Source: Oceanidesulfovibrio indonesiensis | GTDB lineage: Bacteria > Desulfobacterota > Desulfovibrionia > Desulfovibrionales > Desulfovibrionaceae | Assembly (NCBI RefSeq): GCF_007625075.1 | Contig: NZ_QMIE01000010.1 | Span: 62,001-126,000 of the forward strand | Direction of reading: 5' to 3' | DNA: 64,000 bases | In this document: positions 51,551-56,548 of the stretch, piece after piece | How the letters are laid out: each line of letters begins with the position of its first letter | Numbering within the stretch: position 1 is the stretch's first letter | Notes under the pieces: model-generated | The model's database searches: none | Told to the model about the DNA's origin: nothing | What the model saw: only the letters and a program-made list of their open reading frames with translations | Made by a program: the position numbers and the translations under genes

Positions 51551-52378
51551 TCATAGGAGGAAGCTGTTCACCAGCGAGCCGGTGAGCAGTCCCCACCCGT
51601 CGATCATCACGAACAGCAGTATCTTGAACGGCAGCGACACCATGACAGGCGGCAGCATCATCATGCCCATGGAGAGCAGGATTGAGGCGACCACCATATC
51701 CAGCACCAGGAATGGTATGTAGATGAGAAAGCCGATGGTGAAGCCCGTCTTGAGCTCGCTGATCACATAGCCGGCAACGAGCATGATGGTCGGGACGTCC
51801 TCTTTGGTCTCGGGCCGTTCCATCTCCGTGATTGTATAGAAAATTGAGAGATCCTTTTCCCGCGTGTGCTTGAACAGAAACTCCCGCAACGGGTCCTGCG
51901 CTTTGTCCAAAGCTTCGGTGAAACCGATCCGCTCGTCCAGATAGGGTTGCAGCGCCTCTTCGTTTATCTTGGTGCCTACGGGCATCATGATCGCGATGGT
52001 CATGAAAATTGCGAGGCTGGCGAGAATCTGGTTCGGGGGCAGCTGCGGAGTTCCGAGCGCCTGGCGCAGAAAATGGAACACGATGATGATGCGAGTGAAC
52101 GACGTCACCGTCAACATGATCGCCGGCGCCAGTGATAGCACCGTGAGCAGAAAAAGAATTTCGAGGGTTATCGCGACCTTTTCCGGCTGGGTGGCGCCGC
52201 CGGACAAGGTGAGCTGCAAGTCCGGCATGACGATGTCTTCGGCGGCGCGGGCCGCCTCGGGCAGCAGCAGGGCGAAGAGGATGCTAAGAGCGAGAATTGC
52301 GAGCTTTGGCCAGCATTCTGGAAAATGCAGAGCTGCCGCTCTGGGGCGTTGATGTGTATTCGGGAACCTCGTCGTCAT
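51551..52378 (-). CDS. fliP: Flagellar export gate protein FliP
   Basis: FliP forms the pentameric core of the export gate with FliQ and FliR. The 275-residue protein has a long basic N-terminal extension and signal peptide before the mature helices; core blocks are LAPAIMLTVTSFTRIIIVF, RQALGTPQLPPNQILASLA and GMMMLPPVMVSLPFKILLFV. The ATG at 52378 with GGAG seven bases before gives a 95-base overlap with fliO. No later good start exists in this frame. Confidence 0.93.
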   Translation of the reverse strand: MTTRFPNTHQRPRAAALHFPECWPKLAILALSILFALLLPEAARAAEDIVMPDLQLTLSGGATQPEKVAITLEILFLLTVLSLAPAIMLTVTSFTRIIIVFHFLRQALGTPQLPPNQILASLAIFMTIAIMMPVGTKINEEALQPYLDERIGFTEALDKAQDPLREFLFKHTREKDLSIFYTITEMERPETKEDVPTIMLVAGYVISELKTGFTIGFLIYIPFLVLDMVVASILLSMGMMMLPPVMVSLPFKILLFVMIDGWGLLTGSLVNSFLL

Positions 52379-53031: not shown

Positions 53032-53628
53032 CTAGCCAAGCTGCTTGACCCGTTCGATGGGGCTGATGATGTCCGTGAGACGGACGCCGAACTTCTCGTT
53101 GATGACCACGGCCTCACCGCGGGCCACAAGCTTGCCGTTGACGTATATCTCCAACGGTTCTCCGGCCAGCTTGTTGAGCTCCACCACGGACCCCTGTCCA
53201 AGCTGCAGCAGCTCGTTGATGAGCAATCTGGTGCGCCCCAGCTCGGCAGAGACGTCGAGCGGGATGTCCAGAATGAAATCGAGCTCGTGCTTGGTGGCGT
53301 CGGTGCGGGGCGTCTTGGCCTCTTCTGTCAAATCTTTGAATTGAGCGGAGGATGCCTGGCTGGATAGCGACTCCTGCCGGGTTTTCTTTTTGGACAACTC
53401 GGCGCTTTCATCCTCTGCCAGGGCTTTGGCCCATTCATCCGCCAGGGCTTCATCGTCGCTCATGCCCGCGCCCGGCGTTTCAACGCCGCCGCTGCCTTCA
53501 TCCTTGTCTTGCGCGGTCTGTTGTCCCAGATCGGCATCGAAATCCTCAGGGATGTCTTCGCCGTCCTGTTCTGCGAGCGCGGCTGCCCATTCGGCTGCCA
53601 ATTTTTCTTGATCGTTTTCGTCAGCCAT
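53032..53628 (-). CDS. fliN: Flagellar motor switch protein FliN
   Basis: FliN is the C-ring switch subunit that binds CheY and FliH. The 198-residue protein has an acidic, poorly conserved N-terminal half (about 1-110) and a C-terminal SpoA domain (ILDIPLDVSAELGRTRLLINEL, GQGSVVELNKLAGEPLEIY). E. coli FliN is 137 residues. fliM is not between fliL and fliN (12-base gap), so it must lie elsewhere. Confidence 0.93.
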   Translation of the reverse strand: MADENDQEKLAAEWAAALAEQDGEDIPEDFDADLGQQTAQDKDEGSGGVETPGAGMSDDEALADEWAKALAEDESAELSKKKTRQESLSSQASSAQFKDLTEEAKTPRTDATKHELDFILDIPLDVSAELGRTRLLINELLQLGQGSVVELNKLAGEPLEIYVNGKLVARGEAVVINEKFGVRLTDIISPIERVKQLG

Positions 53629-53640
53629 AATTACCTCGCG

Positions 53641-54147
53641 TTATTGTATAACCATTTCGGTAAAATAGACTTGCTGCACTCTGGAGTCCCCCAGCACGAG
53701 ATTCAGGCGCTCCACGATTTCGTTTTTGAGGAGGATCTTGCTTTCCATGGACGAAAGTTCGGAAAACGTCTTACTCGAAAGCAGCATGATAAGGGCATCC
53801 CGGACTTTTGGCTCATTGGAACGCAAAGCAGAGACGACATCCTTCGAGGCAACCTCCACATCCAGGCTGAGCTTGAGATAGCGCCGCCCCAGGGGGTCCG
53901 CCAGATTCACGAGAAACGGGTCCAGCGAGACGACCTGCGAGTCTCCGGACGCCGACCTTCTTTCCTGCTGTCCTTGTCCGTCCGCAGCGCCGTCCTGCGC
54001 GGCGTCGTCTTTGGGGCCGGCAAAAAATTTGGTGTAAGCAAAGTAACCGCCGCCGCCGAGAACGAGCAGAAGCACGACGAGCAATATCCACTTCAGCGGG
54101 GATTTCTTTTTCGGGGTTGCGTCCCCGGATTCGATTGCGTCTGGCAC
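53641..54147 (-). CDS. fliL: Flagellar basal-body protein FliL
   Basis: FliL sits around the motor and stabilises the stators. The 168-residue product has an N-terminal helix (SPLKWILLVVLLLVLGGGGYF near 16-36), a variable linker and a periplasmic domain (VSLDPFLVNLADPLGRRYLK, ALIMLLSSKTFSEL) matching FliL. It follows the second motB-like gene and precedes fliN. Confidence 0.93.
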   Translation of the reverse strand: MPDAIESGDATPKKKSPLKWILLVVLLLVLGGGGYFAYTKFFAGPKDDAAQDGAADGQGQQERRSASGDSQVVSLDPFLVNLADPLGRRYLKLSLDVEVASKDVVSALRSNEPKVRDALIMLLSSKTFSELSSMESKILLKNEIVERLNLVLGDSRVQQVYFTEMVIQ

Positions 54148-54181: not shown

Positions 54182-54928
54182 TCAATATCCACCCAGATAT
54201 GGTTCAGTCTTTAATAATATTTCCACACGGCGATTCGGCAAGGGGTCCTGGCCCGGCAAGGTTTCATACGGCCAGTTGGGACCATACCCTGAAATTGAGA
54301 AACGCCGCTGAGCCACTCCGCTCTGTACAAAGAATGCAAGTACGGAAGTAGCCCTATCCATAGAAAGATCATACGGGTCGACAGCCTCCTGTTCAACCGG
54401 ATTCCACAGGTCGCCCCCGCCCTCGGTGTGCCCGGAGATGTTCACGTCCGCGGTCATGAAGAGGATGAGTTCGGTCAGGGGCTTGAGAAGCATGCGGGCC
54501 TCGGGCGTCAGCTCTGAGCTGGCCTGTTCGAAAAGCAGCGAATCGGAGAGCACCAGGGCGAGGCCTTCCGGGCGTTCGAGGATATGGATGTTTTCGAATA
54601 GCGTCGAGCGATTGATGTCCGGCGGCAGGATATAATCGGGAAAAAGCAGATCCTTGATTCGGTTAGACTTTTCCATGATGGAGAACGGATCCTCGATCAA
54701 ATCCAGAATGAGCTGAATCCGCTGGGGGACCCGCCCGGCGGAACGGTCCGTCGTGAACCCCAGGCTCTGCGTGAATACGTTGATCTTGGTCAGGATGGTT
54801 CTGTCCATGGACGACATGGACAGAATGAGCACGAAGAACGTCAGCAGCAAAGTGGTGAGGTCCGAGAAGGTAATGAGCCACGACGGATCGCCCCCGCCGC
54901 CCGGTGCTCTCCTGCGCTTGCGTCCCAT
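54182..54928 (-). CDS. MotB-like stator protein (second copy)
   Basis: MotB-type proteins anchor the stator to peptidoglycan and carry the proton-accepting Asp. The 248-residue product has one helix with the Asp in FSDLTTLLLTFFVL (Asp23), a plug/linker region and an OmpA-like C-terminal domain (VNISGHTEGG, then LPNRRVEILLK). Its start codon directly follows the stop of the first motB gene (TAG-ATG). It is a diverged paralogue of that gene, not a simple duplicate. Both keep the key Asp. Confidence 0.92.
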   Translation of the reverse strand: MGRKRRRAPGGGGDPSWLITFSDLTTLLLTFFVLILSMSSMDRTILTKINVFTQSLGFTTDRSAGRVPQRIQLILDLIEDPFSIMEKSNRIKDLLFPDYILPPDINRSTLFENIHILERPEGLALVLSDSLLFEQASSELTPEARMLLKPLTELILFMTADVNISGHTEGGGDLWNPVEQEAVDPYDLSMDRATSVLAFFVQSGVAQRRFSISGYGPNWPYETLPGQDPLPNRRVEILLKTEPYLGGY

Positions 54929-55771
54929 CTACTCCTCCACCGCGCCGTCGGCCGCGCCTTGCCTGCGAATGTCGAACCGGAAGTCTTTGTAGATGAAGAC
55001 ATCACCGTTTTCGGACCGATCGCGGGCATATGTGTCCAACGTGGAAATCCAGTAACTGTTGCGGCGGTCCAGCACGATATCGACACGGCGGTTGGCCCTG
55101 CGGCCTTCAGGCGTATCGTTGCTACGCATCGGTTTGAAACGGCCGAAAGCCTCCACGAAAAGCTTGTCCGGATCCATGCCGCGCGAGAGCAGATACTTAT
55201 AGAGACTCATCACCCTGTGAAAGGAGAGCTTCCAGGAAAAATCGAGGGCCGTCTCGTCCATGGAAATATCGTAGTTTTCCTCTTCTTCGCGGCGGATGGA
55301 CGCATGGCCGGCGAGCAGCAGAGGGTGCTCGATGGCGAGCAGGGCAGGCAGCATGCGGTCCACGATCTGCTTGCCTTTGCGGGAAAGCTGAGTCGTGCCG
55401 GGTTCGAATAGCACCTCGTCGTTGATGGAGAGTATCTCGACGAACTTGTTGCGCTGGAAGTCGATGTCGTTCTCGAGATCTTCCCAGAGCAGCTCCTTGA
55501 GCGGCTCCAGGTCCTCGGCTTTCTCCAGCTCGATGGGCCCCGGCTCCAGCGTGAGCCGGCGATCCCGCAGCGAACGAGGGTCGAACCCTTCCTGGCCGAC
55601 GCCGAACGTGCCGATGATGGAGCCCAGCACCACGAGCTTGCGGCGTTCGTCGATGACAGACATGGAGACGAGCAGAACAAAGAACGTCAGCATGAGGGTC
55701 ATCATGTCGGTGAACGTGATGAGCCATGGCGACCCTGCTTGATCTTTTGCTTTTCTGTCTCTGCGAGCCAC
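54929..55771 (-). CDS. motB: Flagellar stator protein MotB (first copy)
   Basis: The 280-residue product has the stator helix with Asp22 (FTDMMTLMLTFFVLLVSMSV) and a C-terminal OmpA domain (LLLAGHASIRREEEENYDIS ... RRANRRVDIVLD). It follows motA by 15 bases and precedes the second motB-like gene without a spacer. MotA and MotB form the proton- or sodium-driven stator. Confidence 0.94.
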   Translation of the reverse strand: MARRDRKAKDQAGSPWLITFTDMMTLMLTFFVLLVSMSVIDERRKLVVLGSIIGTFGVGQEGFDPRSLRDRRLTLEPGPIELEKAEDLEPLKELLWEDLENDIDFQRNKFVEILSINDEVLFEPGTTQLSRKGKQIVDRMLPALLAIEHPLLLAGHASIRREEEENYDISMDETALDFSWKLSFHRVMSLYKYLLSRGMDPDKLFVEAFGRFKPMRSNDTPEGRRANRRVDIVLDRRNSYWISTLDTYARDRSENGDVFIYKDFRFDIRRQGAADGAVEE

Positions 55772-55786
55772 CGGAAAACCCCGATC

Positions 55787-56548
55787 CTAGGTTTCCTTGC
55801 GCCTGTCCTTCGGCGGCAGGAAGCTGGTCAGCTTCTCTTCGATAATGCGCGGGTTCTCGCCTTTGGAAATGGCGAGGATGCCTTCCATGACCATTTCCTT
55901 GACAACGATCTCGTCCTTGCTGCGCTGCTTGAGTTTGCCCGCCATTGGCAGAAACACGAGGTTCGCGAGGATGGCGCCGTAAAACGTGGTGATGAGCGCA
56001 ACGGCCATTGCCGGACCGATGGTGGAGGGGTCCTCCATGGTCTGAAGCATGAGGATGAGGCCGATGGCGGTTCCGATCATGCCCATGGCCGGAGCGTATG
56101 CGCCAAGGGCGGAAAGGATCTCCGCGCCTGTTTCATGGCGCGATTCGAGATAGATGACTTCCTTTTCCAGGATTTCCTGGATGGCTTGGGGCTCCAGACC
56201 GTCCACGGTAAGTTGCAGCCCCTTGCGCAGATAGACGTCATCGATTTCCTTGATGATCGGCTCCAGGGAAAGAATGCCCTCGCGCCTGGCGCGGTTGGCG
56301 TATTCCATGAATTGATCGATGATGTCGGTGGGCGAATCGACCTTGGAAAAAAAGGTGTGCTTGACCACGGAGAACACGCCGAACACGCGCGACAGAGGAT
56401 AATTCACCAACGTCGCGCCGATGGTGCCACCGAGGACGATGAGCAAGGATTCGATGCTGACGAAAATGAGGATGCTGCCTTTGAAGGCAATGGCGGAGAT
56501 CACCAGCCCGAAGGATAGTATGATGCCGATGATGGTTGCCAGATCCAT
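55787..56548 (-). CDS. motA: Flagellar stator protein MotA
   Basis: MotA is the ion-channel stator subunit that turns the rotor. The 253-residue product has four helices (about 3-20, 28-48, 150-172, 182-205) and the family blocks GGTIGATLVNYP and MGMIGTAIGLILMLQTM. Charged residues in the cytoplasmic loop (RRARREGILSLEP) fit the rotor-contact region. I chose the ATG at 56548 because GAGGAG precedes it. yggS lies 10 bases upstream. Confidence 0.95.
   Translation of the reverse strand: MDLATIIGIILSFGLVISAIAFKGSILIFVSIESLLIVLGGTIGATLVNYPLSRVFGVFSVVKHTFFSKVDSPTDIIDQFMEYANRARREGILSLEPIIKEIDDVYLRKGLQLTVDGLEPQAIQEILEKEVIYLESRHETGAEILSALGAYAPAMGMIGTAIGLILMLQTMEDPSTIGPAMAVALITTFYGAILANLVFLPMAGKLKQRSKDEIVVKEMVMEGILAISKGENPRIIEEKLTSFLPPKDRRKET

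Follow-up and report, generated by a model that had tools for sequence, protein, structure and literature searches.

Two MotBs inherited as a fixed pair, one often without the ion-carrying aspartate, suggest flagellar motors running on an unequal MotB pair

In the window, the 64,000-nucleotide stretch of Oceanidesulfovibrio indonesiensis DNA analysed here, a single motA gene is followed by two motB genes. Comparison of this locus with its relatives suggests that the two MotBs, called MotB1 and MotB2 in gene order, are inherited as a fixed pair of which one member often lacks the ion-carrying Asp, and points to motors running on an unequal MotB pair. As judged by sequence comparison, the pair probably forms a flagellar stator whose two B subunits differ from each other: MotA5 would surround one MotB1 and one MotB2 with divided labour and, in many lineages, a single Asp. 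A stator is described as MotA5 around a MotB dimer, the MotB Asp being the ion site (PMC11940233, PMC9389320); here and below, statements on papers cited by PMC number refer to excerpts of them.

The tandem motB genes of the window

The operon lies on the minus strand of the window in the order motA, motB1, motB2, followed by fliL, fliN and fliP (Table 1). The initial annotation had described two adjacent, diverged MotBs after one MotA, and the open reading frames and domain matches agree: MotB1 and MotB2 agree in 65 of 256 aligned columns (25% identity) and share 18 residues of the 28-residue stretch around the channel Asp. Both match MotB_plug (PF13677; 58.8 bits for MotB1 and 54.5 for MotB2, cut-off 24) and, as had been claimed, both carry an OmpA domain (PF00691; 43.0 and 37.1 bits, respectively, cut-off 27.2). 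The channel residues Asp22 and Asp23 named there were found at D22 of MotB1 and D23 of MotB2, and the absence of a spacer (TAGATG) was also confirmed, the TAG of motB1 abutting the ATG of motB2. The best NCBIfam matches of MotA, PomA (290 bits) and MotP (270.2 bits), fell short of their cut-offs but hint at sodium as the coupling ion of this stator.

Table 1. Features of the motA-motB1-motB2 operon and of further motA-motB sets in the same genome. Positions are those of the window unless a contig is given.
Feature	Position	Strand	Basis or remark
motA, sole MotA of the operon	55787..56548	(-)	MotA_ExbB PF01618, 108.5 bits
motB1, 280 aa, GTG start, channel Asp D22, OmpA domain, C-terminal tail	54929..55771	(-)	ORF and domain matches
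motB2, 248 aa, ATG start, channel Asp D23, OmpA domain	54182..54928	(-)	ORF and domain matches
D22 codon, MotB1 channel residue (Ser/Gly/Ala/Thr in 47/107 readable homologous pairs)	55706..55708	(-)	
D23 codon, MotB2 channel residue (Asp in 110/110 pairs)	54860..54862	(-)	
MotB1 tail FIYKDFRFD	54971..54997	(-)	tail motif search
GGAGGAG, likely motB2 ribosome site, within motB1 3' end	54932..54938	(-)	read from DNA
MotB2 GHTE site and following loop	54422-54424		compared with the 20 other aligned MotB2, loop longer by ~7 residues
fliL	53641..54147	(-)	FliL PF03748, 91.4 bits
fliN	53032..53628	(-)	FliMN_C PF01052, 92.5 bits
fliP	51551..52378	(-)	FliP PF00813, 268.8 bits
Further motA-motB sets, same genome (L066, L067)	G000:C1:172291-172458 and G000:C7:40948-41091		

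It had further been proposed that coupled translation would yield equal amounts of the two proteins. This is plausible: measured from longest-ORF starts, the motB1-motB2 spacing fell between -10 and +10 bases in 75 of 110 pairs, with gaps of 11-282 bases in 21 pairs and larger overlaps in 14, and the window's motB2 has a Shine-Dalgarno-like motif of its own. The Asp-less pairs of the window's order (L052, L053 and L075-L081), a type described below, have gaps of 8 to 282 bases, in contrast to the usual touching genes. Fifteen other pairs, all Asp-bearing (L168, L170, L172, L211, L216, L220-L223, L227, L229, L234, L238, L242 and L244), had no motA directly upstream in the stretch examined; their MotA may be encoded elsewhere or beyond that stretch.

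Co-inheritance and descent of MotB1 and MotB2

Operon organization was surveyed at 20 tandem loci chosen from a 61-genome sample of the window's order. The order motA, motB1, motB2, fliL was kept at all 20, with a fliN-like gene in the examined stretch at 17 and a yggS-like gene upstream at 18; at one locus (L050) nearly 1 kb separates motB2 from fliL. In the window fliN directly follows fliL (53628-53641), as it does in L034 and L035 from the same family, and at many loci of other families these two genes stand about 1 kb apart, as expected if fliM lay between them. An otherwise equal motA-to-fliL operon with only one MotB occurs at two loci of the order sample, L070 and L071, so a single MotB can serve such an operon. 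In a 114-row tree of MotB1, MotB2 and single MotBs, the L070 protein joined neither MotB1 nor MotB2 but grouped with single MotBs from other records.

Searches of 199 genomes of the order, with a broad profile for MotB1 (A3, E <= 1e-60) and profile A2 for MotB2 (E <= 1e-55), detected MotB1 in 111 genomes and MotB2 in 110, one copy each. Both profiles matched in 109 genomes, and in all 109 MotB1 lay directly before MotB2 on the same strand. Under the E-value cut MotB1 seemed to occur without MotB2 in G529 and G564; this was rejected, as the DNA of both shows a divergent MotB2 next door. With these two counted by DNA reading, every one of the 111 MotB1 genomes has MotB2 directly downstream. The sole MotB2 without MotB1 (G022) lies about 200 bases from a contig end. 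MotB1 was missing in 88 of the 199 genomes, including the listed genomes of genus code g3, and many relatives have neither protein. Among 297 genomes sampled from the phylum, the best 30 MotB1 loci, the window's included, had an adjoining MotB2 in 30 of 30 cases. Since it is conserved in many genomes of the phylum, the tandem arrangement is far beyond chance. Co-inheritance in one operon can also have its source in separate, complementary roles of the two proteins.

A scan of named genomes with the MotB2 protein alone found no relative. In an alignment-based scan, for which the best 80 of 441 were used, named relatives with the pair included records titled Desulfovibrio, Pseudodesulfovibrio, Desulfomicrobium and Desulfohalobiaceae, together with others that grouped apart. 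Desulfovibrio sp. A2 (L158) is one of these relatives, and Nitratidesulfovibrio vulgaris Hildenborough likewise carries the pair. The pair was not seen in one sample from another phylum (50 genomes around G371), in which 38 of the 50 genomes gave one match each at E <= 1e-40. At six of these loci, all from the top of the match list, a single MotB stood between motA and fliL and scored 197-214 bits as MotB1 and 223-231 bits as MotB2. Such a single MotB could represent the state before duplication.

As judged by the tree and by their C-termini, MotB1 and MotB2 are two old subfamilies and not the product of a local duplication. In the 114-row tree, built by a quick method, 35 of 40 MotB1 rows formed one group (SH-aLRT 95), leaving out L209, L246, L247, L248 and L252. 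MotB2 was less clean, with 6 changes and no single group. A Gly/Asp-Phe-x-Phe-like motif marks the MotB1 tail: it occurred within the last 40 residues in 108/110 MotB1 vs 3/110 MotB2, within the last 25 in 98/110 vs 1/110 and within the last 55 in 108/110 vs 11/110. The MotB1 of L209 and L252 have no tail and, given these two and the outliers of the tree, it is possible that a few of the pairs originated separately.

Both subfamily profiles have MotB and PomB among their best solved chains. The fold predicted for MotB1 (mean pLDDT 69, pTM 0.55) has good confidence over the periplasmic domain and some of the transmembrane helix, and low confidence in the tail. Its periplasmic domain matches MotS, PomB, MotB, a D. 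vulgaris MotB-like protein and other OmpA-like domains in the PDB.

Channel and presumed peptidoglycan-binding aspartates

For residue counts, 140 raw tandem pairs were reduced to 110 by removal of identical MotB1 ends; three of them had no readable start. MotB2 carries Asp at the channel position in 110/110 pairs. The corresponding MotB1 residue was Asp in 60, Ser in 29, Gly in 9, Ala in 6, Thr in 3 and unreadable in 3. The ion-carrying Asp is thus not a feature of the MotB1 subfamily as a whole, being absent in 47 of 107 readable sequences, a proportion that is no population frequency since the pairs are best profile hits and profile A3 held 6/18 Asp-less rows. Misalignment was considered as a source of the 'missing' Asp and rejected: between positions -4 and +15, no acid was present in any of the 47 Asp-less MotB1, while each of the 60 Asp-bearing ones had exactly one. 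As the MotB1 of the window has its channel Asp, no claim of a one-Asp stator is made for the window itself.

Placed on a 91-locus MotB2 tree, the MotB1 state required at least 5 changes, 4 of them forced by well-supported branches. Trees cannot separate gain from loss of Asp; we infer loss where Asp-less tips nest within Asp-bearing ones, as in family f5, all 8 genomes of which have Gly at this site, and in G030. Two Asp-less MotB1-like proteins, L209:3956-5444 (Ala) and L252:1806-3280 (Gly), have no MotB1 tail and are not part of the MotB1 group. On this evidence, Asp-less partners may have more than one origin. A different case is L248:1257-2667 (G165, family f41), a MotB1 with channel Asp and a helix closely resembling that of its own MotB2, whereas the two relatives with which it groups (L246, L247) are Asp-less. 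Gene conversion affecting the transmembrane part could account for this.

The rest of the helix was compared on distinct stretches from 41 Asp-less and 56 Asp-bearing MotB1. Trp -6 dropped from 100% in Asp-bearing to 14% in Asp-less sequences, and Thr -3 and Thr +3 were mostly replaced by Leu or Ile. Phe +8 and Phe +9 were kept in 97% and 100% of Asp-less MotB1, respectively. Several positions therefore differ in step with the Asp, and the remainder of the helix is still MotB-like. Asp-less MotB1 gave pairwise dN/dS values of 0.05 to 0.49 in 34 comparisons, and the matching MotB2 gave 0.05 to 0.48; these Nei-Gojobori values are rough, several comparisons having dS above 1. By this measure Asp-less MotB1 is under purifying selection, and pseudogene decay was rejected.

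A second asymmetry concerns the Asp after G-H-T in the OmpA domain, which we take to be the residue that binds diaminopimelate in OmpA. It is present in 53/107 MotB1 and 99/107 MotB2. The window has it in neither protein, with GHAS in MotB1 and GHTE in MotB2. Throughout the window's clade (44 starred rows of the 91-locus tree) MotB1 has Ser, Ala, Gly or Thr after G-H-T; outside it MotB1 has Asp there, except in L233. Both the channel and the presumed peptidoglycan-binding Asp are absent from MotB1 in f5 and G030, and both are kept in one group of Asp-bearing pairs outside the order. Taken together, the residue counts at the two sites suggest that MotB1 is often relieved of one of two duties.

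The 25 Asp-less genome handles, 24 of them distinct (G352 and G233 have the same coordinates), were searched for any MotB with PF13677. Further MotB_plug matches were found in 12 of the 24. In the other 12 (G096, G187, G211, G233, G253, G273, G291, G310, G330, G348, G353 and G356) the pair was the only match, and flagellin was detected in 11 of these; a search for flagellin found none in G353. The only detected stator in these 12 species thus consists of one Asp-bearing and one Asp-less type of MotB.

A MotB1-MotB2 heterodimer, its rivals and known systems

An obligate heterodimer is the simplest reading, since the two proteins are co-inherited, the Asp is lost on one side only, the Asp-less helix keeps MotB features and in some genomes no other stator was detected. 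We infer that MotB1 and MotB2 stand within the same stator, and from this a mode of ion drive. MotB2 would always supply a full ion-carrying site and normally also the peptidoglycan-binding Asp. MotB1 would be the partner helix of the axle and in most lineages would be freed of one duty. In the window's clade this is the duty of the Asp for peptidoglycan binding; in many other families, and in two lineages within the window's order, it is that of the channel Asp. In the stator of the window both chains could carry ions, with MotB2 as the stronger anchor; in Asp-less lineages MotB2 would be the sole ion carrier and the stator would work on a single carboxylate. In E. coli, the strong dominant-negative effect of MotB D32N speaks against stators that work with one Asp. 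The current 5:2 motor model has two equivalent B-chain ion sites, ten ions per turn and 36-degree steps, and five ions per turn would, as stated there, require an entirely new model (PMC9389320). We give even weight for and against the further proposal that bacteria of this phylum build heterodimer stators and that these constitute, in the many families with one Asp-bearing chain, a natural one-site 5:2 rotary motor. Such a motor would pass five ions per turn instead of ten (or follow an asymmetric two-stroke cycle), the second chain acting as non-conducting axle and anchor.

The main rival keeps MotB2 in ordinary MotA5-MotB2 homodimer stators and places MotB1 beside them, outside the MotA ring, as an accessory protein (scaffold, FliL partner, plug or brake). 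The residues of MotB2 would suit this role, with the channel Asp in 110/110 and the presumed peptidoglycan-binding Asp in 99/107, as would the private tail of MotB1, which could bind another partner, and the position of fliL after the pair. We nevertheless regard it as unlikely, since the Asp-less helix remains MotB-like at Phe +8/+9 and in its hydrophobic core, beyond the need of a plain membrane anchor, and the search of 199 order genomes found MotB2 on its own just once, at a contig end.

The initial annotation had offered two options, a mixed dimer or alternative stators with one MotA in common. Of these, the first is favoured by the 111 of 111 genomes with both genes side by side and by the 47 of 107 pairs in which a stator made of MotB1 only would have no carboxylate. 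Two alternative homodimeric stators, swapped with load, ion or pH, are disfavoured for the Asp-less lineages but would be possible in the window, where both Asp are intact. They would agree with the channel Asp present in both MotBs of the window and of 59 of the other 106 readable pairs, and with Aquifex chimeras in which the transmembrane part of either MotB gave weak motility with MotA in E. coli (PMC4525482). In the 47 pairs, however, a MotB1 homodimer would have no carboxylate in its helix core, making two conducting stators impossible by this route, and in the order sample no loss of one form without the other was found; overall we consider this reading highly improbable. A redundant, drifting and dispensable MotB1, which absence of the channel Asp in several separate lineages might suggest, is scarcely credible against a dN/dS in the same range as that of MotB2, a tail and position conserved over many families and one copy in each of the 111 positive genomes.

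The heterodimer proposed here can be set beside several known systems. Standard MotA5-MotB2 and PomA5-PomB2 stators share the MotB_plug and OmpA domains, but their two B chains are identical and their two carboxylates equivalent, in contrast to the unequal B genes and often single carboxylate found here. A published precedent for the gene order is Aquifex aeolicus, whose operon, compared by its published description, likewise has one motA followed by two motB genes. The transmembrane parts of these MotBs were tested singly with MotA as E. coli chimeras and gave weak, sodium-dependent motility (PMC4525482, PMC4987623). They are 97% identical, whereas here the median is 64% over the 28-residue stretch (60 Asp-bearing pairs); gene conversion of the kind suggested for L248 could likewise account for the Aquifex value. 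In the C-terminal parts identity is about 23% there as well as here. No Asp-less form, and no heterodimer, is described in the excerpts on Aquifex (PMC4525482, PMC4987623). The Myxococcus gliding motor AglR/AglQ/AglS also combines one MotA-like with two different MotB-like subunits, but is not flagellar and has the conserved Asp in both AglQ and AglS (PMC9389320, PMC9120999); formation of an AglQ-AglS heterodimer is stated to be unknown (PMC9389320).

In its excerpts, the review PMC9389320 names Desulfovibrio magneticus as the only exception to an unbroken MotA-MotB gene order, and no mention of paired flagellar MotBs was found in them. Searches of open-licence PubMed Central likewise turned up no paper on Asp-less MotB partners or on heterodimers of MotB. 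Lineages in which the pair is the only MotB, with one Asp-bearing and one Asp-less member, provide a natural test of whether one carboxylate suffices and of heteromeric B subunits, and point to stators whose two B chains could be labelled separately.

Some genomes contain two full motAB sets, such as MotAB with PomAB or MotAB with MotCD, each MotB having its own MotA. They resemble the window's genome in having more than one MotB per cell, but the pair described here shares one MotA. Two further MotB genes, each with its own adjoining MotA, are present in the window's genome on contigs C1 and C7, and several stators may be combined there.
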